From Aeromonas aquatica (lineage in GTDB: Bacteria > Pseudomonadota > Gammaproteobacteria > Enterobacterales > Aeromonadaceae): a stretch of DNA of 64,000 nucleotides. Every line of letters starts with the position of its first letter. The stretch's first letter is position 1. Positions 17,404 to 49,299 of the stretch are shown piece after piece. A program made the position numbers and the translations under genes. The stretch lies in the NCBI RefSeq assembly GCF_000764655.1, contig NZ_JRGL01000012.1, positions 1-64,000 on the forward strand. The letters run 5' to 3'. The notes under the pieces are model-generated. The model was given only the letters and a program-made list of their open reading frames with translations. It made no database searches and was not told the DNA's origin.

Positions 17404-17467
17404 TTAAAATGGACTGGCATATCTCGCCGCCACGGGCTCATCGCTCAGCGGATGGATGAAGTCGACT
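17404..17467 (-). pseudogene. orphan 3' end of an RluA-like pseudouridine synthase gene
   Basis: This 64-base segment aligns, with roughly 85% identity over about 62 bases, to the 3' end of the intact pseudouridine synthase gene whose stop lies 96 bases away. Read on the minus strand it gives DFIHPLSDEPVAARYASPF and a TAA stop, against DFIHPVSGEPMAARSASPF in the intact gene. Similarity stops abruptly on the 5' side. It is a diverged, still in-frame tail copy without the rest of the gene. Confidence 0.8.
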
Positions 17468-17499
17468 CTCTTTTCCCTGCTTTCATTTTTTTGCCGTAG

Positions 17500-18231
17500 T
17501 TAGAACGGACTGGCAGATCGCGCCGCCATCGGCTCACCGCTCACCGGGTGGATGAAGTCGAGCTCGCTCGCGTGCAGCATCAGCCTTGGGGTGTGTGCTG
17601 TGCCTGGCAGCACCATGCCGCCATAGAGATCGCAGCCCAGGATGGGATGCCCCAGCTGCTGGCAGTGGATGCGCAGCTGGTGGGTGCGGCCGGTCTCGGG
17701 CACGAGCCGCACCCGGGTCAGCGTCAGCGGTTCATCCTGCTCTTGTTGGCGGGTGAGCCGCTCTTGCACCCGATAGCGGGAGCGGGCGGGCTTGCCGCTT
17801 TGAGGGCAGATCTTCATCAGCGGAAACAGCGCCGGATCCTTGGCGATGGGGGCGTCGATCAGTCCCTCGTCTTCGGCCAGGTGGCCGCAGAGCAGGGCGC
17901 TGTACGCCTTGGCCACGGCGCGCTGGCTGAACTGGTGACAGAGCTGGGCGTTGATGGCCTTGTTCCTGGCCACCACCATGAGGCCCGAGGTGCCAAAGTC
18001 GAGGCGATGCACCAGGGTGCACCCGGGGAAATCCTGTACCAGCCGATAGTGCACCGAGTCGAGGTTCTGCGGGTTCTTGCCCGAGAGGCTGAGCAGGCCG
18101 CTCGGCTTGTCGATGATCAGCAGGTGTTCATCCTCATGGAGGATCCCGATGCTGGCGTGGCAAGGGGGGGCGATAAAGGTGTCGACGATGGCAGACATAG
18201 GGCGCACGGGCTGGAAAGGGGGGGCGATCAT
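17500..18231 (-). CDS. RluA-family RNA pseudouridine synthase
   Basis: 243 residues. Contains the catalytic HRLDFGTSG motif (Asp about 78), the upstream LLIIDKPSGLLS motif, and PETGRTHQLRIH plus ILGCDLYGG near the C-terminus, all standard for RluA/RluC/RluD-type synthases. There is no S4 domain, as in RluA (219 residues), so the target may be 23S rRNA U746 and tRNA U32, but close paralogues exist and the target is not certain. The start could be 18231 or the ATG at 18198 (MSAIVDTFI); neither has a strong ribosome site. A diverged copy of its own 3' end lies just downstream. Confidence 0.88.
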   Translation of the reverse strand: MIAPPFQPVRPMSAIVDTFIAPPCHASIGILHEDEHLLIIDKPSGLLSLSGKNPQNLDSVHYRLVQDFPGCTLVHRLDFGTSGLMVVARNKAINAQLCHQFSQRAVAKAYSALLCGHLAEDEGLIDAPIAKDPALFPLMKICPQSGKPARSRYRVQERLTRQQEQDEPLTLTRVRLVPETGRTHQLRIHCQQLGHPILGCDLYGGMVLPGTAHTPRLMLHASELDFIHPVSGEPMAARSASPF

Positions 18232-18424
18232 ACTCGAACCGGCTGCTCGGGGCGACTCGGCTGTTTGCGCCGTTCGATGGGATAAGCGGGGATAATTCGT
18301 TCAACAGCTTGATAATTCAGTGGTTTAAAAGTGGGAAGGGCGCCGTTTTGTGACCCCTTCCCGAGTTCATCCGGGGCTTGCTTGTTAAGGTAGGGCTCCC
18401 TGTCATGTTGTAAGGAGTCTGTCC

Positions 18425-19360
18425 ATGGCGTTGCCCGTTATGCTTGATTGTGATCCCGGCCACGATGATGCCATCGCCCTCATACTGGCGCTGGCGAGCC
18501 CCGAACTCAAGGTGCTGGCGGTCACCACCAGTGCCGGCAACCAGACGCCGGACAAGACCCTCAACAATGCCCTGCGCATCCTGACCCTGCTCGGGCGTGA
18601 CGATATTCCGGTGGCAGCGGGGGCGCCGAAACCCTTGGCCCGCGAGCTTATCATCGCCGACAACGTCCACGGCGAGTCGGGCCTCGATGGCCCCAGGTTG
18701 CCGGATCCTGCCTTTGCCCCGCAAGCCATGACGGGCCTCGAATTGATGGCCAAATCCCTGCGCGAGAGCCCGGAGCCGGTCACCCTGGTGCCGACCGGCC
18801 CGCTCACCAACATCGCCCTGCTGCTGGCGGCGCATCCCGAGCTGCACCACAAGATAGGCCGCATCGTGCTGATGGGGGGCGCCGCCGGGGCGGGCAACTG
18901 GACCCCGGCGGCGGAATTCAATATTTATGTGGACCCGGAAGCGGCCGATATGGTGTTCAAGTCCGGCATCCCCATCACCCTGTGCGGGCTGGATGTGACC
19001 CATGAGGCCCAGGTGATGGACGGGGATATCGAGCGGGTACGCGCCATTGCCAATCCGGTGGCCCAGTGCGTGGCTGGCTTGCTCGACTTCTTCATGATCT
19101 ACCATAGGGATCCCAAGTGGGGATTTGCTGGTGCACCGCTGCATGACCCCTGTACCATTGCCTGGTTGCTGGCTCCCGCCCTGTTTCACGGGGTCGAGTG
19201 CCGAGTCGATATCGAAACCAGTGGCGCACATACTACCGGCATGACGGTGGTGGATCGCTACGGCCTGACCGGCAAACCGGCCAATGCCTTGGTGTTGCTG
19301 GGACTGGACCGTGCGGGCTTTATCGATCTGCTGGTCGAACGACTGCGGGCTTTTGGCTGA
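18425..19360 (+). CDS. rihA: pyrimidine-specific ribonucleoside hydrolase RihA
   Basis: 311 residues, the same length as E. coli RihA. N-terminal DCDPGHDDA (residues 8-16) forms the calcium site of the inosine-uridine nucleoside hydrolase fold; [31 protein letters not shown] and HDPCTIAWL are further family motifs. Hydrolyses cytidine and uridine to base and ribose. Located near udp, so two pyrimidine nucleoside salvage genes lie within 3 kb. Followed after 33 bases by a small lipoprotein gene, possibly co-transcribed. Confidence 0.95.
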
Positions 19361-19393
19361 CCGCCATTGCATTATTGAGAGAAGGGATGGGAA

Positions 19394-19867
19394 ATGTACA
19401 AATCGTCGCTGGCACTGCTGGCCTGCGTACAACTGACGGGGTGCGCCACGCCATTCGAGTCGATGTGGCAAGGGCTGGCAACCTGTGATCTGGATCAGCT
19501 CCATCTCGACAGCGAGACGGGTGAGCCATCCCATCCGCAGCTCAAGACCTTCACCCCCGACAAGGTGACGGACGGCTTCGCCTGGTACAAGACCCATCAG
19601 GAGTTGCACGGCCTGCCCATCACCGGGTTTCTCATCCCGGCCTCGACCTTCGAGGTGCACGCCCTCTTCGTCGATACCCCCATCGCCAACGCGCGCCGGC
19701 TGACCCACAACGCCTATGGCAGCGAGTTCAGCGATGAGCGCAAGCATGATCTGGGGGAGGCTCCTCTGCTGCTGCGGGATCCCAACAACCCCAAACGCAC
19801 CATCATCGACTGCACCAAGGGGGAGTCGTCGGAGCCGCTACCGGAGGAGCCGTTCCCGGAGGAGTAG
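19394..19867 (+). CDS. hypothetical lipoprotein
   Basis: 157 residues with a short signal and lipobox (VQLTGC, Cys about 17), then a soluble domain with two further cysteines (TCDLDQL near 31, IIDCTK near the end) and a repetitive acidic C-terminus (EPLPEEPFPEE). I do not recognise a family. ATG 19394 follows a purine-rich GAGAAGGG. It follows rihA by 33 bases on the same strand and is closed by a strong terminator, so the two may form one unit. Probably exported to the periplasm or outer membrane. Confidence 0.8.
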   Translation: MYKSSLALLACVQLTGCATPFESMWQGLATCDLDQLHLDSETGEPSHPQLKTFTPDKVTDGFAWYKTHQELHGLPITGFLIPASTFEVHALFVDTPIANARRLTHNAYGSEFSDERKHDLGEAPLLLRDPNNPKRTIIDCTKGESSEPLPEEPFPEE

Positions 19868-19900
19868 GCGCCGGGGCGAGCATCGCTACGACCAGAGACG

Positions 19901-19928
19901 AGAGAGGGGAGCCATGGCTCCCCTCTCT
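19901..19928 (+). terminator. terminator of the rihA-lipoprotein unit
   Basis: Perfect 13-bp inverted repeat (AGAGAGGGGAGCC / GGCTCCCCTCTCT) with a 2-base loop, followed by GTTTATGTT. Confidence 0.8.
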
Positions 19929-19973
19929 GTTTATGTTCCCCAGTCACCGGTACGGCAGGGGGCTGTTCATCAT

Positions 19974-20066
19974 TCAGGGATAATCCAGCGTCTGTTTGAT
20001 AACGGGCAAATTGGCGGCGATCCAGTCAGGGTTGAACGATGCTCCCCGGTCGCTGACACGACAATG
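19974..20066 (-). pseudogene. orphan 3' end of a winged-helix protein gene
   Basis: 93 bases that match the 3' end of the intact winged-helix gene lying 112 bases away. On the minus strand it reads ...NPDWIAANLPVIKQTLDYP and TGA, against NPDWIAANLPVIKETLGYP in the intact gene, with one in-frame 3-base insertion upstream. Differences are mostly conservative or silent, so the copy diverged as coding sequence. Confidence 0.82.
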
Positions 20067-20085
20067 AGCCGCCCGCGTTCTGTAT

Positions 20086-20382
20086 TCAGGGATAGCCGAG
20101 CGTTTCCTTGATAACGGGCAGATTGGCGGCGATCCAGTCAGGATTGATGGGCCCCCAGTCGCTGATGCGATAGTGGCCCTGCAGGTGGCGCGCCCCCTCG
20201 GTCTGCTCGAAGGCGCAGAGGATGTCGAGCTCGGCCAGGGCGGCCAGGGTGTCCTGAGCGGTGCGCCGCGGCATGCCGGTCGCCGCCATGATGGCCGGGA
20301 TGGTGTCGGTGCCCTGGCTTATCAGGTGGGCGACATAGAGCCGACGGTAGAAGCTGGTGCGAGTCTTGCTCGGCTCTGTCAT
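20086..20382 (-). CDS. small winged-helix DNA-binding protein
   Basis: 98 residues. The segment FYRRLYVAHLISQGTDTIPAIMAATGMPRRTAQDTLAALAELDI reads as a helix-turn-helix with recognition helix (PRRTAQDTLAAL), followed by a beta wing (RHLQGHYRISDWGPI). No other domain. Looks like a small MarR/ArsR-like or replication-initiator-type wHTH of unknown target. It lies downstream of a DUF1523 membrane protein on the same strand (88-base gap), so they may be co-transcribed. A diverged copy of its 3' end follows it. Confidence 0.75.
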   Translation of the reverse strand: MTEPSKTRTSFYRRLYVAHLISQGTDTIPAIMAATGMPRRTAQDTLAALAELDILCAFEQTEGARHLQGHYRISDWGPINPDWIAANLPVIKETLGYP

Positions 20383-20470
20383 TGTCTATCCCCGAGATTT
20401 GCCTGGCTGACCGGACAAGCCGCCATATGCCATCGCAGCAGGCAGCTGGCGCCGTTTTTGCCTGAGTCGA

Positions 20471-21001
20471 TCATATCTCGTCCTCGAGACGGTCGAAGTA
20501 GCGCCAGGTCGCGATGGCGGCCTTGCCCATCACCAGGGCCCAGATGCCGAACCAGAACCAGCGGAAGAAGCTCCAGGTGGAGGCGTCGGGCTGGGTGCTC
20601 TCGATCTTGGTGACGTTGGGGAACAGGGAGAACATGTTCACGCGCCAGCCGTAGGAGGTGATGATGGCGAGGCGTTTCTCGAACTCCATGGACTTGGCCT
20701 TGGCCTGGACGTCGGCGGCATTGAACTTGAAGTAGAAGGGCCAGCCCCAGAGGGTATCCTCGTTGCGGAACACCCGGATCTTCTCGCCGGGGCGCTCGGT
20801 GTAGATGTAATAGACATCGACTGTAGGGCCATCGGCCGGGTTCTTCTGGCTGATGGGGCCGTCCTTGTCGGTGCGCTTCACCTCGACCCCGGTGATGGTG
20901 GCGATGGTGTGCTCCGGCAGATAGAAATCGAGCCAGAGCGCGGAGAGCAGGGCGACGAGGCCCAGGGCGATAAAGGCGGGTTTCTTGAACTTGAGGCTCA
21001 T
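20471..21001 (-). CDS. DUF1523 family membrane protein
   Basis: 176 residues: an N-terminal membrane helix (about 9-25), a periplasmic beta-rich domain (VYYIYTERPGEKIRVFRNEDTLWGWPFYFKFNAADVQAKA), and a C-terminal membrane helix (about 145-165, Trp/Phe-rich). The central KIRVFRNEDTLWGWPFYFKF pattern is characteristic of DUF1523. Function unknown. Start ATG 21001; a GAGAAC lies shortly upstream. No signal for cleavage, so both termini are likely cytoplasmic. Confidence 0.8.
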   Translation of the reverse strand: MSLKFKKPAFIALGLVALLSALWLDFYLPEHTIATITGVEVKRTDKDGPISQKNPADGPTVDVYYIYTERPGEKIRVFRNEDTLWGWPFYFKFNAADVQAKAKSMEFEKRLAIITSYGWRVNMFSLFPNVTKIESTQPDASTWSFFRWFWFGIWALVMGKAAIATWRYFDRLEDEI

Positions 21002-21175
21002 GGTGTTCTCTAGGTGAGGGGGAATGACGTGCCTCTACCATACCCATATTTAAGCATGGCGCCCAGTCCCTAATGGCACCTTAAAATCAAAAGAGTCATT
21101 TAAAACGAAGAGAAGTCGGGGGCCACAGAGACCCGGGCCCAGGGTACGGGGCCCGAGCGTCACCCCAAGGGGCGA

Positions 21176-22798
21176 TTACAGCTGGAATTGGGACAGTTGC
21201 TTGCGTTGCTGCTCGGCGAGCTGTGACAGTTCGTGACTGGCGGCGGCGCTCTGGCTGATGCCCGCCACGTTCTGGTTCACTATCTCGTGGATATTGGTGA
21301 TGTTGCGGCTGATGTCGGCGGTGACGCAGGATTGCTCCTCGGCGGCGGTGGCCACCTGGGCATTGGCGCCGTTGATCTGGTTGACCGCCTGGGTGATGCC
21401 GCCGAGCAGCGCCTGCACCTCGGCGGAGAGTTGCTGGTTGTGGCTCAGGATCTCGAGGGTCTCCTGCACCCCGCTGTTGGCCGACAGGGACTGGCTCTGC
21501 AACTGCTCTATGATGACCTGGATCTCCTTGGTGGAGTCCTTGGTGCGGGCCGCCAGCAGGCGTACCTCGTCGGCCACCACCGCGAAGCCACGGCCGGTTT
21601 CACCGGCGCGCGCGGCCTCGATGGCGGCGTTCAGGGCCAGCAGATTGGTCTGCTCCGAGATGCCCTGAATGACTTCGATCACCTTGCCAATCTGCTCGGA
21701 CTGGGACTTGAGCCGCGCCACCACGGCGGCGGCGCTCTCCAGGCTCCCCGCCATCCGGCTGTTGGCCTGGATGCTCTTGGCGAACAGCGCCAGACCCTGT
21801 TCGACTCGGTTGTTGGCGTCCCGCGCCAGCTCGTCGGCGAGGGCGGCGTTGTGGTTGACGTTGTCGGCGGTGCTGGCCAGCTCGGTGACGGCGGAGGCGA
21901 CCTGCTCGGTCTCGCTGCGCTGCTGCTGGGCATTGGCCTCGGACTGGTTCATGACGGCGGCGAGCTCGGTGGCGGCGGACGCCACGTTGCCGCTGATGCC
22001 GGTCAGGGTGTGGATGGTGCTACCGAGCTGCGTCAGGGTCTGGTTGATGTCTTTGGCGAGCTGGCTCAGCTCGTTGTTGCCCTCGGCTTTGGCCCGCACG
22101 TTGAACCTACCCTGGGCGACGGCGCGCATCACCTCCTGCAACTGGCCGATGGGACGCACTATCTGGCCGGACAACCACCAGCCACCGAGCAGCGCCGCGA
22201 GCAGGGTGCCTCCCATCAGCAGCAGAGTCCGCAGCAGGGTGGCGTGGTAGTGCGCCTCTTCCTCGGCAATGTCGGCCAGGATCAGCTGATTGACGTGGGC
22301 CGACATGCTGTCGATCTCCTTGATCAGCTGCTCCCCCAGATCGCGAAAGCGCAGCCGGGACTGTTCGTAGGCGGCGCTATCGCCGTTCCCCTGATATTGC
22401 CGGGCCAGCAGCGGCAGCATGTTGTTGCGGGTGTGGCTGAGGTAGGCCTGCAGGGCCATGGCCACCTGGCGATTGTCCTGCTCGGCGCCGGTTATCACCA
22501 GCCGGGCCAGGATGGCGTCTATCTCCTGCTCGGCGGCATCGAGCGCGCTCGGCAACTGGGCAAAGCGCTGCTGATCGTAGAGGCCATAGATGGCATTGGT
22601 GCGCAGCCGGTAGGTCGCGTGGATCAGGGCGGCGATGTCGTCCTTGTGACGGGTGACGCTGGCGGTGGTCTGATTCATGTCTCCGATGGCGCTGTCTATC
22701 TCCTGCTTGCTGATCCCGACCATGAGGATCATCAGCAGGCTGGCAAGCAGTAGGGGGATGAGAACTTGAAGACGGATAGACAGGGTATTCAACGACAT
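21176..22798 (-). CDS. methyl-accepting chemotaxis protein
   Basis: 540 residues. Membrane helix 1 (about 10-30), a periplasmic four-helix-bundle-like sensor domain (about 31-190), membrane helix 2 (about 192-212), HAMP (to about 265), then a long cytoplasmic coiled-coil with the conserved hairpin tip ([35 protein letters not shown]). No C-terminal NWETF-type CheR/CheB tether. Signals to CheA/CheW. Ligand unknown. ATG 22798 follows AGGA at 7 bases; 18 extra upstream codons were dropped. Monocistronic. Confidence 0.93.
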
Positions 22799-22963
22799 GA
22801 AAAATCCTAACCCAAAAGAGGAGTGAAACGGCATCTTACACAGGCGCGACAAGGGCTGTCACAGGGTTTTTATGGTTGAAACCGGACCGGGGGAAAAGGT
22901 TTTTTCTTGTGTTAAAAGAGTGTGATAGGCAAGATCACCGGGTTATTGGCATGGAGGTGTAGT

Positions 22964-23596
22964 GTGTCTGACTGGATTGATCCCGCCATTCTGGCGTTAT
23001 TTGTTCCCACGTTCTTTTTTGTCTCTGTCACGCCGGGCATGTGCATGACCCTGGCGATGACCCTCGGCATGAGCCTGGGGGTGCGCCGCACCCTGCACAT
23101 GATGTGGGGGGAGCTGATCGGGGTCGGACTGGTCTCGGTGCTGTCGGTGGTCGGGGTGGCCGCCGTCATGCTCAACTACCCGGCGCTGTTCTCGGCGTTC
23201 AAGTACGTGGGGGGCGCCTATCTGGTCTGGCTCGGCATCCAGATGTGGCAGGCGAAGGGCAAGATGGCCATCCCGGCGGACTTGTCGGCCGGGCAGGAGA
23301 CCAAGCCGCTTGGCCTGGCGCTGCAGGGCTTCGTCACCGCCATCGCCAACCCCAAGGGCTGGGCCTTCATGGTCTCCCTGCTGCCACCCTTCATCAATGC
23401 GGCCAAGCCGATGGCGCCGCAGATAAGTGCCCTGGTGACGCTCATTCTCGTCATCGAGTTCTCCTGCCTGCTGCTCTACGCCAGCGGTGGCCGCACCCTG
23501 CGCCACTTCCTCGCCAAAAGTGGCAACGTCACCCTGATGAACCGCATCGCCGGCTCCCTGATGCTGTTTGTGGGCGTTTGGCTGGCCTTCGGCTGA
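22964..23596 (+). CDS. LysE/RhtB-family amino acid exporter (LeuE-like)
   Basis: 210 residues with six hydrophobic helices and the LysE signature near the N-terminus (FFFVSVTPGMCMTLAMTLGMSLGVRR) plus GFVTAIANPKGWAFM in the middle. Inner membrane proton-coupled export of leucine, lysine, threonine or similar; substrate cannot be told. The start is GTG at 22964 because a full GGAGGT lies 5 bases upstream. The TGA stop is also the first base of a MITE-like repeat. Confidence 0.9.
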   Translation: MSDWIDPAILALFVPTFFFVSVTPGMCMTLAMTLGMSLGVRRTLHMMWGELIGVGLVSVLSVVGVAAVMLNYPALFSAFKYVGGAYLVWLGIQMWQAKGKMAIPADLSAGQETKPLGLALQGFVTAIANPKGWAFMVSLLPPFINAAKPMAPQISALVTLILVIEFSCLLLYASGGRTLRHFLAKSGNVTLMNRIAGSLMLFVGVWLAFG

Positions 23597-23751
23597 GAAC
23601 CTGTTCACGATCTTGCTGCAAGGCCGTGATCAAGGCTCATGTGCTGCTCGCCTATGTGAAAAAAATGGCTCACGTATCTGTATACGCTCCGGTTCCTGCG
23701 CTGCTCTTCACCTTGCTGACAGCCTCTCGTGACAGGTCGTGAACAGGTTCT
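23596..23751. repeat. MITE-like element, copy 1
   Basis: 156 bases bounded by perfect 15-bp terminal inverted repeats (AGAACCTGTTCACGA / TCGTGAACAGGTTCT), without a coding frame. A degenerate copy in the same orientation lies at 24943. No clear target-site duplication. Such elements are usually mobilised by a transposase encoded elsewhere. Confidence 0.7.
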
Positions 23752-23768
23752 GATGGCGCGAGCCATGC

Positions 23769-23800
23769 AAAAAGGCCACCTCTTGGGAGGTGGCCTTTTT
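23769..23800. terminator. bidirectional terminator between leuE-like and GH84-like genes
   Basis: 14-bp inverted repeat (AAAAAGGCCACCTC / GAGGTGGCCTTTTT) with a 4-base loop and T-runs on both strands; serves the converging genes. Confidence 0.9.
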
Positions 23801-23822
23801 TGTGGGCGGCTGGCGCCTCTGA

Positions 23823-24923: not shown

Positions 24924-24942
24924 AATCGACTCCCTTCTCGCT

Positions 24943-25052
24943 GAAAACCTGTTCACCGTCTTGCAAGAGGCCATGAATCAGGAATATGTGCTGCTCTGAA
25001 CCTTATTATCACTACAACGCGCGGTTGCTGCGCTGCGTTCACCCCATGCTGG
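24943..25052. repeat. MITE-like element, degenerate copy 2
   Basis: Begins GAAAACCTGTTCACCGTCTTGC and carries GTGCTGCTC and GCTGCGTTCACC blocks in the same order as copy 1, but the right-hand inverted repeat is not recognisable, so the right boundary is approximate. Lies directly upstream of the GH84-like gene. Confidence 0.5.
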
Positions 25053-25099
25053 CCAGCTGGCGCTGGGTGGCTTTTATTCAAGATGACCTAACGCCGATG

Positions 25100-27086: not shown

Positions 27087-27111
27087 GCAGGGGCGCCGGC
27101 AGGGCCCCTGC
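27087..27111 (-). terminator. terminator of the yffB-dapE operon
   Basis: 8-bp stem GCAGGGGC / GCCCCTGC just past the last small gene, followed on the minus strand by a CTTCTTTTTTACC run. Confidence 0.75.
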
Positions 27112-27119
27112 GGGGTAGA

Positions 27120-27266
27120 TCAGTCGTCCTCGTCGTCTTTGACTTCCCGGATCTTGTCCTTGTATTTGGGCAGTTGCTTCTCGAGCCGCTTCATGTCCTT
27201 GATGGCATTCAGAAACAGGCCAAGCAGGAACAACAGCGGCAGGCCTATCCATAACCACACACTCAT
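27120..27266 (-). CDS. small single-pass membrane protein, last gene of dapE operon
   Basis: 48 residues: [21 protein letters not shown] forms one membrane helix, followed by a charged tail (MKRLEKQLPKYKDKIREVKDDEDD). ATG 27266 follows AAGGAG and overlaps the stop of the preceding M15 peptidase gene as ATGA, so it is translationally coupled. I recognise no characterised family; short proteins of this form follow dapE-type operons in relatives. Role unknown. Confidence 0.8.
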   Translation of the reverse strand: MSVWLWIGLPLLFLLGLFLNAIKDMKRLEKQLPKYKDKIREVKDDEDD

Positions 27267-27949
27267 CGGATTCTCCTTTCGGCGTGACTGGCAGTGACAT
27301 AACGGGCCAGGATCTCGTCGAGATGAGCCAATACGCACGCCTTGCCTTCAATATCCGCCTGTTGCAGGCAAAGCGCCAGCGCATCCGGATCCAGCTGCTG
27401 ATCGGCCGACTCCAGGGCGAAGCTGATGTGCCAGGGTTCAACGGCGACGCCGCTGCCGCCGAGGGGCTTGGCAAAGGGCAGGAAGAAGCCGAAGTCGTTC
27501 ATGTGATCCCCGAGCCAGGCGCTCAGATCCCTGAACCAGCCGCCCTCCTCATACTCCCAGGGCTCCAGCGCCAGCCTGGTGCCGGTGGGCAGGCAGTCGG
27601 GATCGTAGATGTCGAGATCCGTGCCCCAGTGGTGACGGCTGGTGCCGGGCAGGGCACTCCAGCGCAGGATGGCGTGCAGCCGCTCGGTCTCCGTCAGTTG
27701 CAGCGCATCCAGCGGTTGGTTGTTGGCGTCCAGCAGGGGCCGTTCGCCGCGCCATTTGCCATTCCAGATGGCGAGCTGGCGTTCGAACCCGCGCCAGCTG
27801 GAGGCCGCCTGCAGGTTGTGACCCTGATGGGCGGCGGCCACCTGCATGTCGTTGAAGGCCGCCGCGGTGGCGGCGGTCAGGCGGTGGGGGCCGCGCCCCA
27901 CCAGGATGAGGTGGCTCTCGTCGAGCCCCAGCAGCTGATCCTGGGTCAT
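27263..27949 (-). CDS. M15-family peptidase (D-alanyl-D-alanine carboxypeptidase, VanY type)
   Basis: 228 residues. The LAS-fold zinc site is visible: [14 protein letters not shown] (His106/107, Asp111-113) and [10 protein letters not shown] (Glu171, His174). These enzymes trim D-Ala or cleave peptidoglycan stem peptides. No signal peptide is apparent, which is odd for a wall enzyme; it may act on cytoplasmic recycled muropeptides or use another export route. Its ATG overlaps the dapE stop as ATGA. The pairing with dapE, which supplies diaminopimelate for peptidoglycan, is functionally sensible. Confidence 0.9.
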
Positions 27950-32857: not shown

Positions 32858-32883
32858 AAACGGGAGGCCCAGGCCTCCCGTTT
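32858..32883 (+). terminator. terminator of the M20 peptidase gene
   Basis: 12-bp stem AAACGGGAGGCC / GGCCTCCCGTTT followed by TTT; 21 bases past the stop. Confidence 0.9.
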
Positions 32884-32912
32884 TTTATGGAAATTGGATG
32901 GTCTGGAGCTGC

Positions 32913-33004
32913 CCTAATTGACCAGATGACTCGCGCCTAACTGACCAGATGGCTAGCGTCTAACTGATTAGACGGCTAGCGCCTAACTGACTAGATGGCT
33001 CGCG
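32913..33004. repeat. four tandem 23-bp repeats formed from a gene's 3' end
   Basis: Units at 32913, 32936, 32959 and 32982, each close to CCTAACTGACCAGATGGCTAG plus CG. The last unit contains the final codons and TAG stop of the Dph6-like gene; the other three repeat that tail (ASHLVS-stop) beyond it with 2-6 changes per unit. A minisatellite-like expansion of a coding end; not a CRISPR array, since there are no spacers. Confidence 0.9.
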
Positions 33005-33654
33005 CCATCTTCCGCCAGATAGGCGAGGTGATCCTGCCGCGCTACCCGCCAGCCGTTGAGGGGGATCGGCGCAGCAAACCCTGGCCCGTCGGTCACCATG
33101 CTGTGGTACTCCCCCTGCTCGCCGCAGGCATCGAACCCCTGTCGCGCCGCCAGCGCCTGCAACTCGGCGAGGCTGGCGGCATCCAGCGCCCTCCCCACCC
33201 AGTCGGGGGTCAGCACCCGGCTATCGACGCAGGAGAGATGAGCCCGGATGCCGCGGGCCAGCAAGTCCGCCAGCAGTACGTCCCTTGGCTGTTGCCAAAG
33301 GGGTGTATGCACTTTGAGCCCGAGCGGCTGGCAGCGGGCGCGGATCCAGTTATCGGCACCGCCCACGCTGTCGATGTCGCCGGTGACCACCCCCTCTATC
33401 GCCCACTCCCGCTGCAAGCTGACCAGCGCCTGCTCGTAACTCTGCTCGAAGGGCGCTGCTATGGTCACCAGTTGATGGGGCAGGCCGAGGGCCTCGGCCT
33501 GGCGCCGTACCAGCGGCAGCGGATGGGCGAGGAAGCGGGGATTGGGCGGGGCGAAGGTGACCAGGGCCACCACCTGATGGCCCTGATCGCGGGCATGGCA
33601 GAGCGCCTGCATGGCATCCTTGCCGCCACTCCAGAGCGCGATGACGCGAGACAT
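32983..33654 (-). CDS. Dph6-like ATP-pyrophosphatase (adenine nucleotide alpha hydrolase)
   Basis: 223 residues with an N-terminal PP-loop SGGKD (residues 9-13) and the Dph6/MJ0570 signature EGVVTGDIDS and FDACGEQGEYHSMVTDGP. Eukaryotic Dph6 amidates diphthine; bacteria lack diphthamide, so the bacterial substrate is unknown, possibly a cofactor or B12-related amidation. ATG 33654 by homology; the ribosome site is weak. The last residues (ASHLVS) and stop are repeated three more times downstream as 23-bp units. Confidence 0.87.
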   Translation of the reverse strand: MSRVIALWSGGKDAMQALCHARDQGHQVVALVTFAPPNPRFLAHPLPLVRRQAEALGLPHQLVTIAAPFEQSYEQALVSLQREWAIEGVVTGDIDSVGGADNWIRARCQPLGLKVHTPLWQQPRDVLLADLLARGIRAHLSCVDSRVLTPDWVGRALDAASLAELQALAARQGFDACGEQGEYHSMVTDGPGFAAPIPLNGWRVARQDHLAYLAEDGASHLVS

Positions 33655-33744
33655 GGTGTGATTCCAAAGGGGAAAGAGGAGGCATGCTACCCGCCCAAGG
33701 GGGCCTTGGCAAAATCCGTAGGGCGGGCGCAGAGGGCAGAAAAA

Positions 33745-33773
33745 CAACAGGCCTCGCAAATGGAGGCCTGTTG
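33745..33773 (-). terminator. terminator of dcuB
   Basis: 11-bp stem CAACAGGCCTC / GAGGCCTGTTG with a 7-base loop; TTTTT follows on the minus strand. Confidence 0.85.
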
Positions 33774-35262: not shown

Positions 35263-35269
35263 TAAAAAT

Positions 35270-39366: not shown

Positions 39367-39377
39367 TTTGTGTTCTG

Positions 39378-40672: not shown

Positions 40673-41886
40673 ATATCGTCACTTCCTCTGATAAATCGGG
40701 GCCTTTCGCCCTGAGTGACGCCCTGGCCGAGCGTGAGCGTAATGACCTGCTGCGCCGACGCACCCCGACCGAGGGCGCCACCGGGCTCCGGCTGCGGGTC
40801 GGGGGGCGCGAGTACCTCAACTTCTCCGCCAACGACTACCTGGGGCTGGGGGGCCATGAGGCCATCAAGGCTGCGTTCAAGGCCGGGGTCGATCGATATG
40901 GCGCGGGATCCGGTGCCTCCCCCCTGGTGACCGGCTACAGCCGCGCCCACCAGCAGCTCGAAGAAGACCTCGCTCATTGGCTGGGACTGGAGGCGGTGCT
41001 GCTGTTCAACTGCGGCTTCTCCGCCAATCAGGCGGTGCTGAAAGCCTTGCTCGGCAAGGATCACCTGCTGTGGCAGGACAGGCTCAACCACGCCTCCTTG
41101 CAGGAGATGGGCAGCCAGCTGCCCTGCAAGATGAGGCGCTTTCCCCACAACGACATGGACGCGCTCGAGCGGCAGCTTGAACCGGGCCGTGGCCTCATCG
41201 TCTCCGAGGGGGTGTTCAGCATGGACGGGGATCAGGGGCCTTGGGCAGCACTCAGCCGCCTCGCCGCCCAGAGCGGCAACTGGCTGATGATCGACGACGC
41301 CCACGGTATCGGGGTGCTCGGGCCAGAGGGGCGCGGCACCCTGGCGGCGCAGGGGGTGAGCCCGGCTTGCGTCCACATCCAGATGGGTACCTTTGGCAAG
41401 GCGCTCGGGGTGGCCGGGGCCTTCGTCGGCGGTAGCCGTGAGCTGGTGGACTATCTGGTCAACTTCGCCCGTCCCTATGTCTACAGCACCCATATGCCCG
41501 CCGCCCAGGCCTGCGCGGTCAGCCAGAGCCTGGCGCTGGTACGGGTTGCCGATGAGGCGCGTGATCAGTTGCGGCAGCTGATTAGCCGCTTCCGGCAGGG
41601 GGCCAGCCAGCTCGGCTGGCGGCTTGGGGCGAGCGAGACCCCGATCCAGCCGTTGCTGGTGGGGGAGAGCGCGCCTGCGCTGGCTTTGAGCGAGCGGTTG
41701 CGTGAGCGCGGCCTCTGGGTCGGTGCCATCCGTCCGCCCACTGTGCCGGCGGGCACGGCGCGGCTGCGCATCACTCTCAGCGCCGCCCACAGCGAGCAGG
41801 ATGTCGATCGCCTGCTCGATGGCTTGGGCCCTTGCCAAGGAGCAGCCCTCTGCCCGGCCCCTGCCGGGGAGTCTTCCCATGCATGA
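40669..41886 (+). CDS. bioF: 8-amino-7-oxononanoate synthase
   Basis: 405 residues, an alpha-oxoamine synthase. [42 protein letters not shown] and GTFGKALG (PLP lysine 244) are present. Condenses pimeloyl-ACP (or CoA) with alanine. Starts within the bioB stop (ATGA overlap) and its 3' end overlaps bioC by 8 bases. Slightly longer than E. coli BioF because of a C-terminal extension ([17 protein letters not shown]). Confidence 0.97.
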
Positions 41887-42697
41887 TCCTCAATCTCGGG
41901 ACGCCTTTCAGCGGGTCGACAAGGTGCAGCTGGCGCGCCGCTTCGGCGCCGCCGCCCACCGGTACGACGCCCATGCCCAGTTTCAGCAGGAGGTGGGGCA
42001 GGCCTTGCTGGCCATGATGCCGGCCGGCTCATCTCTGACCGGTGCCTTACCCGAGGCCGGGCTGGATCTTGGCTGTGGCACCGGCTTCTTCCTGCCTGCG
42101 CTGGCCGATCGCTGCCAGCGGCTGCACGGGCTGGATCTCGCCCCCGGCATGCTGGCGCAGGCGGCCCAACGGGGCTGTGGCGCCCTGCTGCTGTGCGGTG
42201 ATGCGGAGCAGTTGCCCTTCGCCGACCAGAGTCTGGACTGGGTCTTCTCCAGCCTGGCCCTGCAGTGGTGCGAGCGCCCGGCCCAGGCCTTCGCCGAGCT
42301 GTGTCGGGTGCTCAAGCCTGGCGGTCAACTGCTGTTCTCGACCCTGCTCTCGGACTCCCTCTGGCAGCTGCGTGAGGCCTGGCGCACAGTTGACGAGCGT
42401 CCTCATGTCAATCGCTTCCTCAGCCTGCCACAATTGCGCCGCGCCCTCAGCGACGGGGGTTTCCCCGCCCCGGAACTGGCGTGCCAGACCTGGTCCCTCG
42501 CCTACCCGGAGCTCAACGGCCTGCTGCGGGATCTCAAGGGGATAGGCGCCAGCCAGATCAACGACGGACGCCAGCCCGGTCTTGGCAATCGTCAGCGCCT
42601 GCTGCGTCTGGGGGAGGCCTATGAGCAATATCGTCAGCCGAATGGCCTGCTGGCCGCCAGCTACCAGGTCTGCCTCGGACGACTCGTTCGTCAATAG
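41879..42697 (+). CDS. bioC: malonyl-ACP O-methyltransferase BioC
   Basis: 272 residues. SAM-binding LDLGCGTGFFLPALAD near residue 62, and the BioC-type LPFADQSLDWVFSSLALQWC and GIGASQIN segments. Methylates malonyl-ACP so that fatty acid synthesis can build the pimeloyl chain. ATG 41879 lies inside the end of bioF behind GGGGAG. The gene's 3' end (VRQ-stop) is followed by a short repeat of itself. Confidence 0.95.
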   Translation: MHDPQSRDAFQRVDKVQLARRFGAAAHRYDAHAQFQQEVGQALLAMMPAGSSLTGALPEAGLDLGCGTGFFLPALADRCQRLHGLDLAPGMLAQAAQRGCGALLLCGDAEQLPFADQSLDWVFSSLALQWCERPAQAFAELCRVLKPGGQLLFSTLLSDSLWQLREAWRTVDERPHVNRFLSLPQLRRALSDGGFPAPELACQTWSLAYPELNGLLRDLKGIGASQINDGRQPGLGNRQRLLRLGEAYEQYRQPNGLLAASYQVCLGRLVRQ

Positions 42698-42728
42698 AAG
42701 GCCGGCTTGTTCGTCAGAAGGCCGGCTG
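42686..42728 (+). repeat. direct repeat of the bioC 3' end
   Basis: GTTCGTCAATAGAAGGCCGG plus CTT at 42686-42708 is repeated as GTTCGTCAGAAGGCCGGCTG at 42709-42728, the second lacking three bases (ATA). The first unit holds the last two codons and stop of bioC. A further partial unit (GTCCGTC) follows. Confidence 0.8.
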
Positions 42729-42842
42729 GTCCGTCCATCAGCGATTCCGCCCACCCATGAGGGAGCGGACTCGCCACCGAGCATCATTGAAACGCGGGTG
42801 AGCCGCTCTGGCCGTCACCCTGTATTGCGTTGAGGAGTCATC

Positions 42843-43523: not shown

Positions 43524-43636
43524 ACCCGACATTCAGCAAACATTCATCGGATCTATCTATTATCTGGAGCTGGTGTGGTATCGGGCTGGCAGCGAATTGG
43601 CCCGGACCACGCATCTATATCTCACAAGGAGTCAAT

Positions 43637-44509: not shown

Positions 44510-44523
44510 GCGTATCGCCATCA

Positions 44524-44551
44524 AAAACGGCTGCCCTTGGGCAGCCGTTTT
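44524..44551 (+). terminator. terminator of htpX
   Basis: 13-bp stem AAAACGGCTGCCC / GGGCAGCCGTTTT with TT loop, followed by GCTTT. Confidence 0.85.
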
Positions 44552-44585
44552 GCTTTCTGGGGCACATAGCCCTCGCATCCCCCCC

Positions 44586-46394
44586 TTATCGGGGTCCGAT
44601 CACCAGATCGGTCAGCGGCACGGCGCAGCAGGTGAGGATCTTGCCCTCGGCCCGCTCGGCGGCGGTGATGGCTGGCGCCTCCGGGTGATCCACTTCCCCT
44701 TCGATCAGGGTCTGCTTGCAGCTGCCGCAGATGCCGGCGCGGCAGCTCCAGGGCAGCTCCACCCCCTGCTTGTGGGCCTGATCCAGTATGGTGCCCTGAT
44801 TGTTGCCCGTAAAACTCTGCTCGCCGATGCGCAGCTGCACCGCCTGGTGGGGACGGGTCACCGAGAGGATGGCGCCGCCGAAGCTCTCCTGCCGGATGCG
44901 CTCGGCGGCCACCCCCAATTCACGTAACTGCTCGACTGCCTCGCTCATAAAGCCGTGGGGGCCGCACAGGAAGACGTCCCGCGCCAGCAGACCCTTGACC
45001 TGCGCGAGGTGCACCTTGCCGAGGCGCCCGCTCATGCCCTGCCAATGGCCATCGGGCTGACTCAGGATCAGGGTCAGCTGCATGCCGGCCTGACTCATGG
45101 CGTGCAGTTCGGCGGCGGCCGGGATGTCGGCCTCGCTGCGGCACAGGTGCATAAAGTGCATATCGTCGAGTTCGTGTCTGAGATGCAGGGTGCGGGCGAT
45201 GGAGAGCATGGGGGTGACGCCGGAGCCCGCCGAGAGCAGCAGCAACTTGCGCTCGGTCCCCAGGTGGAAGTCACCGGCGGGAGGGGCGGCCAACAGGCGG
45301 TCACCGACCTTGAGCTGGCTGTGCAGCCAGGGGGAGATACGGCCATCGGCCAGCTTCTTGACGCTGATGCCGTAACGCTCAGGCCTCTCCGGGGTGGAGC
45401 TCAGGGTATAGCGGCGCTGTTGCCTTTCCCCCTTGATGTCGAGGCTGATGGGCAGGTGCTGGCCCGGCAGATAGTCAGGCAACGGCTCGCCGTCGGCGGC
45501 CTCGAACCAGAAGGTCTCCAGATCCCGGGCCAGGGGCTCGCGGGCGACGCAGACCAGCGCCCGCTTCTTCGGCGCCGCATTGGGGTAGACGGGGGGGCGG
45601 GTGCTTTCCAGTACCTCGATCTCGCTGCCTGCCTCAATCCAGCCCTCGTTCAGCGCCACCAGATTCTGGCCGAAATAGACCTCGCCATCTTGGCCACGGC
45701 GGTAGCGGGTGAGGGTGGCCAGTGGCTCTTTCAGGGCGTTGAAGCGATCCGTGCCCGCCTCCACCGTGGTCATGATGCAGCGGCTGCAGGGCTTGGCCAC
45801 CAGAAACTCCACCTCGCCGATGCGGATCCGCTTCCAGCCATCCTCCTCGAAGGGGCGGGTGCCGCTCGCCACCAGGTTGGTCCTGAACTGGCTCATCTGG
45901 TGCAGGGCATCGGACCTCAGGTTGAGGTCATCGAGCGAGGCCTGGCTGATCAGCAGCAGGGGATAGCCGTCGGCAAAGCTGACCCGGGTACCGGTTTTCT
46001 CCCGAAAGCGGTCAGAGGTTTCGCCGAGCCAGAGCAGGCGAACCGGCTCCCCCGCCACCCGGCTCAGCCAGGCATCGGCCTGAGCGTGGGTGTGCAGAGC
46101 ATGGAAGCTGTCGCCCCAGACGCCGGTGGCCTGCGGAGCCCGGCTGAATGCCTGCTCCTGCAGGCTGAGGGGATCCAGGCCCGGGTAGCGCAACTGCAAG
46201 CCGCCGTCGACGGCGGCGGCCACCACCAGCTGTAGCTGGGGATGGGTGCGGGCCGTGATGAAGCTGCCATCCGGTTTGACCACCATGTAACGGCGATCGC
46301 CTTTCAGGCCCTCTTCGGTCACCAGGGCGCGGGTCAGTGGCATGCCTGCGGTCGATTTGATGGGATAGAGATGAATGCTGTCGAGCCTTGGCAT
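44586..46394 (-). CDS. MOSC domain / flavin reductase / ferredoxin fusion (YcbX-like)
   Basis: 602 residues in three parts. 1-265: MOSC N-terminal barrel and MOSC domain (LYPIKSTAGMP, GDRRYMVV, KPCSRCIMTTV with the Moco-binding Cys), as in YcbX and the mitochondrial amidoxime-reducing component. About 275-500: an FNR-type FAD/NAD(P)H reductase (RRYTLSSTPE, LLSAGSGVTPMLSIA, FLCGPHGFM). About 515-602: a [2Fe-2S] ferredoxin (CRAGICGSC near 549, distal CC). So reductase, electron carrier and molybdenum active site sit in one chain. E. coli YcbX has only the MOSC and ferredoxin parts and reduces N-hydroxylated bases. Start ATG 46394 follows AAGGA at 8 bases. Confidence 0.92.
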   Translation of the reverse strand: MPRLDSIHLYPIKSTAGMPLTRALVTEEGLKGDRRYMVVKPDGSFITARTHPQLQLVVAAAVDGGLQLRYPGLDPLSLQEQAFSRAPQATGVWGDSFHALHTHAQADAWLSRVAGEPVRLLWLGETSDRFREKTGTRVSFADGYPLLLISQASLDDLNLRSDALHQMSQFRTNLVASGTRPFEEDGWKRIRIGEVEFLVAKPCSRCIMTTVEAGTDRFNALKEPLATLTRYRRGQDGEVYFGQNLVALNEGWIEAGSEIEVLESTRPPVYPNAAPKKRALVCVAREPLARDLETFWFEAADGEPLPDYLPGQHLPISLDIKGERQQRRYTLSSTPERPERYGISVKKLADGRISPWLHSQLKVGDRLLAAPPAGDFHLGTERKLLLLSAGSGVTPMLSIARTLHLRHELDDMHFMHLCRSEADIPAAAELHAMSQAGMQLTLILSQPDGHWQGMSGRLGKVHLAQVKGLLARDVFLCGPHGFMSEAVEQLRELGVAAERIRQESFGGAILSVTRPHQAVQLRIGEQSFTGNNQGTILDQAHKQGVELPWSCRAGICGSCKQTLIEGEVDHPEAPAITAAERAEGKILTCCAVPLTDLVIGPR

Positions 46395-46578
46395 GTCCGG
46401 GTCCTTGTTGGTCGAGAGAGAGCACAGTGGCGACTCAGGTCCGGCCAGGATCGCGCGACGATACCCGAGCGGAGCAGGGAGTGCAGAGAGGAAAGATGTT
46501 AACCGGCTTGAGGGCTGTCACCAAGCCCCGCGATGACCGCTGGCGCCAGGTGAGGGGGATGGTGGCGACCGGCAATAA

Positions 46579-46600
46579 AAAGCCCGGCATACAAGCCGGG
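46579..46600 (-). terminator. terminator of the YdcH-like gene
   Basis: 8-bp stem AGCCCGGC / GCCGGGCT with TTTTTATTG on the minus strand; 40 bases past the stop. Confidence 0.85.
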
Positions 46601-46640
46601 CTGGGGGATAAGTTGCTTATCCGGGTATTCGTCGAGGCGT

Positions 46641-46856
46641 CTAATGTGGATGTTGTTTGAGGATGTCGTATATCTCCTCTTTCAGTTTAAGTTTCTGTTT
46701 TTTCAGATCCTTCACCTCGGAGCTGTAATCGCTGGCGTGATGCTTTTCCAGTTTTCTAATCTCCTCATCCAGGTCGTTGTGCAAGTCAAACTTCTTCTGG
46801 AAATGGACATCACTGCTCTTCAGTTTAGAGATGAGATCTCTGTACTCTGGGAACAT
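46641..46856 (-). CDS. YdcH/DUF465 family small protein
   Basis: 71 residues, all helical and highly charged (MFPEYRDLISKLKSSDVHFQ..., HNDLDEEIRKLEKHH, VKDLKKQKLKLKEEIYDIL). This is the typical DUF465 form, a short antiparallel coiled-coil of unknown function. ATG 46856 has an excellent AAAGGAGG ribosome site. Monocistronic. Confidence 0.92.
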   Translation of the reverse strand: MFPEYRDLISKLKSSDVHFQKKFDLHNDLDEEIRKLEKHHASDYSSEVKDLKKQKLKLKEEIYDILKQHPH

Positions 46857-47092
46857 GTAATGGAGCCTCCTTTGTTTCGTTTGATTGTGCCTTGACCTTC
46901 AAACTACCCCTAACCCCGACGAAGAAATGTGATCCGCTTCAAATTCGGCGCCAATGGATCTTAGCCCGCCTCTGCAGTTTTTTAACTAATTGAATCACAA
47001 GCAGATAAGGGGCTTATGAGTAAGGGGGAGTGCGTTAAATCGGGATTGGCGTCACGTTTGTGACCAAGGGATGACAGTCACGGACAGCAAAA

Positions 47093-47109
47093 AGGGGCCA
47101 AAGGCCCCT
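47093..47109 (-). terminator. terminator of the MATE-exported protein unit
   Basis: 7-bp stem AGGGGCC / GGCCCCT with AAA loop, T-run (TTTTTGC) on the minus strand. Confidence 0.8.
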
Positions 47110-47129
47110 CGTTGCAACGCAGACGCGTT

Positions 47130-47720
47130 TTACTCTTTTTTCTTTTTCTTCTCGGGCAACGGCTGGCCGTCGCGGGCGATCACCTTGCCCACCTCGAAGC
47201 CAATCTGCGCCGCCAGCTCTTCCAGATCCGGCGCCTTGGCCTCGTCGCCGATGGCGTACTGGTAGTTGGCGATGGTGATCTTCTCGGCCACCGGGGTGCC
47301 GGGGACTATGGGCTCACGCCAGCCCTGACCCACATGGGCGACCAGGGTGCCGTTCATGATGAGCTCGCCGACGATCTCTTGGGTGGGGGTGCCCTTGCCG
47401 TAGGTGAGGGCCTGGGGATGTTTCTTGCCGACCAGGGGCTCCGTGCTGGCATGCATCAGCTTGGTGCGGATCAGCCACTTGGGATCCTTGGTCTTGCCGA
47501 CCGCCTTGCCGGTCTGGTACTCGTTGATCTTGATGGTCTTGATCATCTGAGCCATGAATTCCTTGGTCAGCGCCTTCTGCGCCTCGTTGGTCTCATCGAT
47601 GGCGATGGGAGCCACGTACCAGGTTTGGGGGGCGGGTGCCTTGGGGGCTTTGGGCGCGGTCTGCGCCATGGCCAGTGGGCTGAGCAGGAGGGCTGCCAAC
47701 AAGAGTCCTATTTTCTTCAT
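47130..47720 (-). CDS. exported protein of unknown function
   Basis: 196 residues with a clean Sec signal (MKKIGLLLAALLLSPLAMA, cleavage after AMA), a Lys/Pro/Ala linker, a soluble domain (WYVAPIAIDETNEAQKALTKEFMAQMIKTIKINEYQTGKAVGK, HPQALTYGKGTPTQEIVGELIMNG) and a poly-Lys C-terminus (EKKKKKE). I recognise no family. Two adjacent ATGs (47723, 47720); the second is better spaced from CGGA. It starts 11 bases after the MATE exporter stop, so the two are probably one operon. Confidence 0.8.
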   Translation of the reverse strand: MKKIGLLLAALLLSPLAMAQTAPKAPKAPAPQTWYVAPIAIDETNEAQKALTKEFMAQMIKTIKINEYQTGKAVGKTKDPKWLIRTKLMHASTEPLVGKKHPQALTYGKGTPTQEIVGELIMNGTLVAHVGQGWREPIVPGTPVAEKITIANYQYAIGDEAKAPDLEELAAQIGFEVGKVIARDGQPLPEKKKKKE

Positions 47721-47731
47721 CATGATTCCGC

Positions 47732-49090
47732 TTATGATTCCACAGGTGTTTCGACAAGGATTTTGTTTTGCCAGCGGCGACTGCGCCAGCGCCAGAACAT
47801 GGCCAGACCGCGCACCCATTCGTCACAGGCGAGCGCCAGCCAGATGCCTACCAGGCCATAGCCCTGCATGATACCAAGGAAATAGGCGAGGGGAACGGCA
47901 ATCCCCCACATGGAGAGGAGCGCCATGTAGAGCGGGAAACGGGCATCCCCGGTGGCACGCAGGGCGTTGATCACCACCAGGTTGAAGGTGCGGCCGGGTT
48001 CGAGGATGAGGCTGATGAGAAACAGCTGTGCCACCTGGGTGATGATGTCGGCATCGTCGGTGAACAGGCTGATGATGGCGCGGCCGTTCAGGGCCGCGGC
48101 GATGGCGATCAGGGTGGTGACGATGAGCCCGAGCTTCAGGCTCTTCATCAGCTGGTTGTAGGCCTGCTCGAAGCGGCGAGCCCCGGCCAGATGGCCGATG
48201 ATGATCTCGTTGCCAAGGCCGATGGAGAGGCCGAACAGCAGGATGAACAGGCAGATCTGGAAGAAGTAGGACTGGGTCGCCAGCGCCTTGTCGCCGAGCA
48301 GGCCGACAAAGGCCGTCACCACCATGAACTGCAGCATCCAGGAGAGGTTCTCCCCCGCCGCCGGCAGGCCGATGTGCAGCACCTTGTCCAGCATGACCTT
48401 GCTTGGCCGTAGGATCTCCGGCAGCCGCAGCCGGATGCCGGTCTTGCGTGCCACCAGCCACACCAGCAGCACCACGCCGACGATGCGTCCCGCCACCGTG
48501 CTGATGGCGACCCCGGCCACTCCCAGTTGCGGCAGGCCGAACCAGCCGTAGAGCAGCAGCAGGTTGCCGACGAAGGTGATGAGGTTGACGATGAGGGTCA
48601 CGTACATGGCCTGACGGGTGTGGCCATGGGCGCGCAGGGTGGCAGCCAGACAGAGCGCTGCCGCCTCCGGCAGAAGACAGAGGCCGATGATCTGTAAGTA
48701 AAGAGTGGCGTCGCCCATCAGGTTGGCGGGCAGGTTCATCAGCGCCAGCATGGTGCTGGCCCCGGCGATGACCCCCACCGCCGCCACCAGTCCCACCAGC
48801 AGGTTGAAGCCGATGGCGGTGTGGATCACCACCCGGGCTTTTTCCTTGTCACCGGCTCCCAGATACTGGGTGATCACCACGCTGGTCCCTATGCTGACGA
48901 AGCTGAACAGGGTGATGGCGAGATCGAACACCTGGTTGCCGACCGCGAGCGCCGCCACCCCCTGATAGGAGACGTGTCCCACCATGAAGGTATTGAGGGC
49001 CCCGGTCAGGAAGTGCAGGGCGAGATCGATGAACAGTGGCCAGGTCAGGGAAAAGAGGGAGCCCGGGCCTGTGTGGGGTTGAGTCTGCAT
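47732..49090 (-). CDS. MATE-family multidrug/cation efflux transporter
   Basis: 452 residues and 12 membrane helices. Family signatures: LALHFLTGALNTFMVGHV, GNQVFDLAITLFSFVSIGTSVVITQYLGAGD, ATLRAHGHTRQAM, INALRATGDARFP. Na+ or H+ coupled export of organic cations. Upstream of a small exported protein with which it is likely co-transcribed. Substrate unknown. Confidence 0.92.
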   Translation of the reverse strand: MQTQPHTGPGSLFSLTWPLFIDLALHFLTGALNTFMVGHVSYQGVAALAVGNQVFDLAITLFSFVSIGTSVVITQYLGAGDKEKARVVIHTAIGFNLLVGLVAAVGVIAGASTMLALMNLPANLMGDATLYLQIIGLCLLPEAAALCLAATLRAHGHTRQAMYVTLIVNLITFVGNLLLLYGWFGLPQLGVAGVAISTVAGRIVGVVLLVWLVARKTGIRLRLPEILRPSKVMLDKVLHIGLPAAGENLSWMLQFMVVTAFVGLLGDKALATQSYFFQICLFILLFGLSIGLGNEIIIGHLAGARRFEQAYNQLMKSLKLGLIVTTLIAIAAALNGRAIISLFTDDADIITQVAQLFLISLILEPGRTFNLVVINALRATGDARFPLYMALLSMWGIAVPLAYFLGIMQGYGLVGIWLALACDEWVRGLAMFWRWRSRRWQNKILVETPVES

Positions 49091-49222
49091 GGGATGTCCA
49101 AATAGGGAGGATGGCGTTCGTCAGCACCATCTGGACGGGCATTTAACACCAAGAGCCTGAGCTGTGCAATGGATGATCCGGTCATCCCGATCCGGTGTGG
49201 AGCAGGATGGCCGGACCACGGC

Positions 49223-49299
49223 TCAGGCTGGGGGCGAGCCCGCCTCCTGTCCGCTCGACAGAGTGAATCGACGGTGCCGAGTTCGGCTGCATCTCATCC
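49223..49299 (-). pseudogene. orphan 3' end of a SulP permease gene
   Basis: About 77 bases repeating the 3' end of the intact SulP gene, whose stop lies 81 bases away. Reads RFTLSSGQEAGSPPA-stop on the minus strand against RLTLPSEQEAGATPA-stop in the intact gene, with an indel upstream. Only about 4 bases separate it from the intact gene's stop codon. Confidence 0.78.

Follow-up and report, generated by a model that had tools for sequence, protein, structure and literature searches.

Why should several genes in one short stretch of a bacterial chromosome be followed, directly past the stop codon, by a second copy of their own last codons? The question is raised by the first 64,000 nt of contig NZ_JRGL01000012.1 of Aeromonas aquatica (hereafter the window; its genome is designated G000), in which an earlier note made from the sequence had reported five genes with such an extra 3′ end. 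Approximately three genes per 100 in these Aeromonas trail a decaying copy of their own last 50–120 nt, here called a tail. The tails are attributed, with a probability of roughly two in three, to old local tandem duplications of approximately 100-bp segments across gene ends, followed by decay and by some exchange between species. The density of the tails, their bias to the 3′ end, and the open mini-frame that they leave before a co-directional gene are new here; a literature search by title and beginning of abstract, which does not exclude earlier print, found no description of such duplicated gene ends.

Density and distribution of duplicated gene ends

Repeats in the window were found by self-comparison, and each gene end was tested by local alignment of its final 150 nt to the 400 nt downstream, with the maxima of 200 shuffles as the control. 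Three of the five reported genes, the RluA-like, HTH_43, and SulP genes, have tails of 68–97 nt that score well above the shuffles (45.5, 54.5, and 36.0 against shuffle maxima of 20.0, 18.5, and 18.5, respectively). The corresponding self-matches are 17379–17465 with 17475–17561 for RluA including its flank (76%), 19965–20066 with 20077–20175 for HTH_43 (79%), and 49223–49299 with 49304–49376 for SulP (74%); by eye, HTH_43 has a shorter second remnant between tail and terminator. The other two genes drop out of the class. The Dph6-like gene ends in a minisatellite, a run of 23-bp units at 32891–33004 (score 19.5, shuffle maximum 17.5), and bioC is not above chance in G000, with a best score of 15.0 below the shuffle maximum of 22.0; its 20-bp repeat (42696–42715 with 42716–42735, 90%), of which approximately 11 nt are common with the coding end by eye, is not what the test picks up. 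All three tails terminate in a stop codon of their own, as had been claimed, but they are only partly in frame, as the full copies carry indels: one in RluA (1 nt), three in HTH_43 (1, 1, and 2 nt), and two in SulP (3 and 1 nt).

The survey was extended with a simple gene caller, and the final 150 nt of every gene were compared by alignment with the 300 nt that follow, with mismatched gene and flank pairs as the null and a cut-off score of at least 25 (at least 22 for comparisons of families). The G000 stretches were taken by contig number (375 kb beyond the window; 439 kb scanned in total), and those of G009 were spaced evenly, with two more opposite the window. Stretches of G017, A. eucrenophila CECT 4224 (G011), and A. 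tecta CECT 7082 (G032), the latter two named by a SulP identity of 1.000, and four further stretches of G009 were selected because they lie opposite tails, and their rates are therefore biased upward. In G000, 13 of 363 gene ends reached the cut-off, and in G009, 12 of 320, with 0.3 expected in each, so that the count is far above chance across the genome, as the earlier note had anticipated. At gene starts, the same score was reached by 3/346 in G000 and 3/294 in G009, and in mid-gene controls by 1/269 and 0/253. One of the 13 matches in G000, at L154:5063 (score 34.5), fell short of the stop and was removed, which reduced the tails of the five-genome set (G000, G009, G017, A. eucrenophila, and A. 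tecta) from 42 to 41. The 3′ preference that had been proposed is confirmed in this set, some stretches of which were picked opposite tails: copies occur at 41 of 1,036 gene ends and at 7 of 964 gene starts (p = 1e-6). In 1,239 kb of the five genomes, an unsupervised scan for local direct repeats (offset 40–300) assigned 41 to gene ends, 11 to gene starts, nine to both, 12 to intergenic DNA, and 13 to gene interiors; the corresponding numbers are 3, 0, 0, 3, and 6 for three other Aeromonas (400 kb) and 0, 0, 0, 17, and 4 for eight other genomes (800 kb). The rarer 5′ class is exemplified by L161:7539–7763 of G000, in which a gene start is duplicated upstream (82/94).

Rates were compared between genomes on the contig-number set of G000 and the even-step set of G009, with the window and its G009 counterpart excluded. 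On this basis, and with matches not near the stop excluded, tails follow 9/310 gene ends in G000 and 10/282 in G009, while the window alone has 3/53. Three other Aeromonas (G014, G035, and G036) have 2/305, and eight genomes of other genera have 0/530. The excess over other genera is firm (19/592 against 0/530, p = 5e-6), and no tail was found among 735 more gene ends from other Aeromonadaceae, Shewanella, Vibrio, and relatives. The excess over the other Aeromonas is suggestive (19/592 against 2/305, p = 0.018). A SulP tree with named genomes groups G000, G009, G017, and G036 with A. eucrenophila and A. tecta, and the absence of tails from 81 gene ends of G036 counts against an excess in this clade: p is 0.018 with G036 placed outside, 0.08 with it omitted, and 0.13 with it inside, which is why the contrast is not graded higher. 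Adding 442 gene ends around SulP from 25 other Aeromonas, with one tail, brings p below 0.001, but this addition is weak because A. eucrenophila and A. tecta also have 0/41 around SulP. In the upward-biased stretches opposite tails, the counts are 6/105 for A. eucrenophila, 4/90 for G017, and 3/88 for A. tecta.

Tails also occur beyond the clade. Significant HTH_43 tails were found in six of 24 other genomes (G003, G013, G015, G020, G021, and G033), A. sobria has one strong tail at L284:14796–15725 with a 125-nt alignment (102/128), and the array at L169:13404 is present in G010, G014, and G026; by SulP, two of these, G010 and G026, match A. enteropelogenes and A. sanarellii. The SulP tail, for its part, clearly exceeds shuffles in one of 30 compared genomes. 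Among 14 families with at least one match that were compared in three to five genomes of the five-genome set, eight have a tail (score at least 22) in at least two species, and tail boundaries are often the same across species, as at L169:13404 in G000, G009, and G017 and past a VanY-like gene in G009, G017, and A. tecta. The VanY-like gene is followed by a shorter tail in A. eucrenophila (21.5, just below the cut-off of 22).

Anatomy, decay, and origin of the tails

In the 41 tails, the copy begins 48–120 nt upstream of the stop codon, and the duplicated segments mostly end within approximately 40 nt past it. The stop-to-stop distance is 62–143 nt in 37 tails and 167–278 nt in four, and the median identity of intact end and tail is 0.79 (0.70–0.94). 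When 600 nt of each gene were aligned with 900 nt downstream, no alignment reaching the stop exceeded approximately 120 nt; several longer matches of approximately 60%–76% identity and a 107-nt match at L173:18034, which lies far from the stop, do not extend to it and are likely paralogous neighbours. The gene after the tail is co-directional in 27 cases, convergent in 12, and undetermined in two. The spacer between gene and tail resembles the flank past the tail in eight of 22 testable cases (above the 95th percentile of mismatched spacers), with approximately one expected. Multi-unit arrays with repeated flanks were recognized by eye at L158:618, at L169:14248, and past RluA in G017. Just past the window in G000, an EptA/EptB-like gene (L152:4972) is followed by two 114-bp units at L152:6592–6819 that are identical at 113 of 114 positions, and this array is therefore taken to have expanded recently; tails at L152:4972 share species-specific states with their own gene by eye, which points to homogenization.

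The pattern of mismatches bears on how the copies aged. Between intact end and tail, codon positions 1, 2, and 3 differ at 168/1,036, 153/1,041, and 231/1,055 sites (0.162, 0.147, and 0.219), and between the intact ends of different species in the same families at 366/3,976, 221/3,958, and 931/3,944 (0.092, 0.056, and 0.236). A fit to the 41 pooled tails gives a uniform part of 0.125 (95% interval 0.088–0.157) plus 0.40 (0.20–0.67) of the coding distance, with intervals that are too narrow because related tails enter more than once. A copy born near the split of the species, with the gene alone under constraint, should differ by roughly half the coding distance in addition to a uniform part. 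By this pattern, the tails appear to decay like non-coding DNA, and the earlier view that they diverged while coding is not upheld.

According to the preferred reading, a local tandem duplication of approximately 100 bp would span the stop, from 48–120 nt before it to mostly 0–40 nt after it; since the stop is part of what is copied, the gene itself would be unbroken and would gain another 3′ end behind it. That surplus copy would then decay as non-coding DNA, would sometimes expand to several units or be homogenized with the gene, and would sometimes be lost or swapped between species by recombination. Birth by slippage or by illegitimate recombination at short direct repeats is plausible, and such a repeat is clear at the junction of one locus, L169:13404. 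Pooled microhomology was rejected as proof of birth at short repeats, the signal being weak and driven by arrays, and Ku-type non-homologous end joining was discarded, as a Ku gene was found in none of 37 Aeromonas genomes.

Several observations weigh against duplication as the source of the tails. Fresh tandem duplications are unstable and should be identical; nearly all pairs of intact end and tail are 70%–89% identical, only two of 41 exceed 90%, and duplication by itself does not account for the survival of copies for long enough to diverge. No clear match to the post-tail flank is seen for 14 of the 22 spacers, and at 36 testable junctions the longest shared run has a mean of 5.0 against 4.15, a difference that stems from multi-unit arrays and from one locus present in four copies. 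With 25 nt of post-tail flank added, a relative slightly outscores the own end of the gene at each of the three loci in the window (50.0 against 48.5, 59.0 against 57.5, and 41.0 against 36.0). At the recO-like gene L158:7492, the tails of G000 and G017 are closer to the ends of A. eucrenophila and A. tecta, which lack a tail, than to their own: the G000 tail has identities of 0.89 and 0.88 with these ends and 0.77 with its own, and the gene ends of G017 and A. eucrenophila differ by 31%, while their bodies differ by 6%.

This last locus fits the mechanism put forward in the earlier note, taken here to mean that a resident gene was replaced one-sidedly by a divergent homologue and an illegitimate far junction left the resident 3′ end behind as the tail. 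HTH_43 also fits it in part: by eye, the last residues of its tail (LDYP) and the flank resemble the intact end and flank of A. eucrenophila, the body of the G000 gene is nearest to A. eucrenophila and G009 (0.93 each), and its end is nearest to G017 and A. tecta (0.91 and 0.90); elsewhere, too, the outermost unit often looks like the end of tail-less relatives by eye. Replacement is nonetheless unlikely as the main source of tails. It predicts a coding factor near 1, and the 0.40 found speaks against tails that diverged as coding alleles; flanks are repeated in some cases, one array has near-identical units, and no tails are longer than approximately 120 nt, although any length would be tolerable. 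The kinship of the window tails, judged by alignment, also goes against it, as they appear closest to, or tied with, gene ends of their own clade. A comparison of tail and intact end with relatives, which the earlier note had suggested, gave a mixed answer, with the own end closest at HTH_43, a tie with G009 at SulP (36.0 each), and near equality with A. eucrenophila at RluA (45.5 against 47.5). Besides duplication, recombination between species moves and reshuffles some gene ends, as at HTH_43 and L158:7492. G000 and G010 have 92% identity over the block at L169:13404 and 80% over the stretch with the next gene. Divergence of the intact gene end against that upstream is 0.195 against 0.121 in pairs with one tailed member and 0.162 against 0.126 in tail-less pairs, a difference too small to discriminate.

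A process specific to 3′ ends, for instance one linked to transcription–replication conflicts or terminators, would make the bias mutational rather than a matter of which copies survive as harmless. It would account for the 41 gene-end repeats in the unsupervised scan and for segments that mostly end so soon past the stop, and it is less likely again than replacement: the same genomes hold 5′ and intergenic duplications, the same bias could arise if duplications that disrupt genes or promoters were lost, and tails precede co-directional and convergent neighbours alike. Chance similarity or assembly artefact describes the bioC repeat in G000 well enough, and its probability as a general account is negligible, given the 13 matches against an expectation of 0.3 and identical tail boundaries in separate assemblies, including one that consists of a single contig.

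Mini-frames between gene and neighbour

The frame that ends at the tail stop was traced back towards the gene in the 31 tails that have a stop and a spacer no longer than 60 nt. It is open as far as the gene stop in 28, with 14.9 ± 2.7 expected under a decay null in which the gene end receives the observed mismatches and indels. Counted by family, with 70% of mismatches placed on the tail, 20.7 of 23 are open (12.5 ± 2.2 expected). Co-directional families, including one with an undetermined neighbour (L261:536), have 14.7/15 open against 8.7 ± 1.8 under simulated neutral decay, and convergent families have 6.0/8 against 3.8 ± 1.3. As 18.9 of 23 families would be open in the absence of decay, the data indicate that frames already open when the copy arose have been retained. 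The size of the effect may be overstated, since the remaining two frames are open in 45% of cases and the exclusions (five tails with spacers above 60 nt and five without a stop at the matching place) favour open frames; with the five stop-less tails counted as closed, the figure is 28/36. In only four families, and in two more by eye, does the tail stop fall between −7 and +4 nt relative to the next called gene.

One such case is L169:13404, where ATGCTGA, which overlaps a start, closes a permease gene (PF00528). As read by eye, the first part of the spacer resembles the next gene's start, and the tail joins at TGGCTGG, a motif present in both genes in G009 and G017. The frame that reaches the next start has 38–49 codons and is open in G000, G009, G010, G011, G014, and G026, with the N-terminus ML-x-x-[ED]-x-A-x-WRQHSL-x-GA; G017 is open in a different frame. 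Its differences in the first group, between G000 and G010, are few and by eye mostly residue-changing, and the comparison gives no sign of peptide constraint. At the VanY-like gene, the tails have kept the AGGAG site of the following gene, while the intact ends before them have lost it or have a weaker one; in G000, which has no tail, the single gene end carries AGGAG (by eye).

Where a second gene lies close downstream, the duplicated segment could take in its start, as seen by eye at two loci, so that spacer and tail would form a frame from the stop of the first gene to the start of the second. Copies in which this frame is open would be retained; the probable reason is that closing the gap would break translational coupling or bring about polarity. 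A more far-reaching proposal is that one clade has, or recently had, an elevated rate of approximately 100-bp duplication at 3′ ends, with some 110–130 tails per genome by extrapolation, and that this repeatedly created translated mini-frames of approximately 22–49 codons that take over the start signals of the next gene; this is doubtful.

The window, related systems, and meaning of the tails

The features of the window are listed below.

Coordinates of tails, parent genes, and related repeats in the window
Feature	Position	Strand	Remark
RluA-like pseudouridine synthase gene (PF00849)	17500..18231	-	intact
RluA tail copy	17404..17471	-	68 nt, 58/69 identical, own TAA; spacer 17472–17499
HTH_43 winged-helix gene (PF09904)	20086..20382	-	intact
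HTH_43 tail copy	19974..20070	-	97 nt, 78/97 identical, own TGA
VanY-like peptidase gene	27263..27949	-	without tail in G000
Dph6-like gene (PF01902)	32983..33759	-	final codons inside 23-bp tandem repeat
Three more 23-bp units past Dph6-like gene	32914..32982	-	minisatellite, different class
20-bp repeat past bioC (gene 41702–42697, +)	42698..42735	+	weak, within shuffles in G000
SulP/STAS transporter gene (PF00916, PF01740)	49304..51127	-	intact
SulP tail copy	49223..49299	-	77 nt, 58/77 identical, own TGA, 4-nt spacer

An Rfam search of the window at gathering scores returned the tmRNA gene (11682–12041, minus strand) as its single match and no known structured RNA at the tails. The window also contains a 92-bp direct repeat (67/99) between divergent genes at 12679–12869 and a 58-bp direct repeat (76%) at 23592–23649 and 24940–24996, the copies of which lie 1.3 kb apart and flank a minus-strand gene. 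Palindromes at 19901–19928 and 32859–32882 are likely terminators, with near copies at many sites in many of 37 Aeromonas genomes among the matches listed.

Minisatellites, or variable-number tandem repeats, consist of head-to-tail units that expand to several copies. The tails share the head-to-tail arrangement and the expansion, of which the Dph6 repeat is a plain example, but their units are approximately 100 bp, vary by locus, and sit on gene ends. Three published systems are close in other respects. De novo tandem repeats form between paired short sequences and can revert (Yi et al., 2014; PMC4169377); these, too, are short tandem duplications, but those described arose inside one gene under selection, whereas the copies described here are diverged, span stop codons, and belong to many unrelated genes. 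In Vibrio cholerae, effector genes that were displaced leave behind arrays of orphan immunity genes (Kirchberger et al., 2017; PMC5361080), and older downstream layers are likewise kept beside a working gene; they consist of whole genes, arise by horizontal transfer, and occupy few loci, while the tails are 50–120-nt ends at many loci and mostly resemble their own clade. Homology-facilitated illegitimate recombination, with one homologous and one illegitimate junction (PMC3240628), supplies the junction pair that replacement needs, but its copies would differ like alleles at birth, which the average tail does not.

For annotation, the tails mean that a similar end after a gene end need not signal a frameshifted or recombined gene. 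If the reading is true, a lineage can populate the DNA between its genes with copies of their ends, and the tails would form a countable and roughly datable natural record of short tandem duplication. The bridging frames would then be a route by which small genes and proteins arise from gene ends and by which a ribosome-binding site is shifted off the upstream gene.

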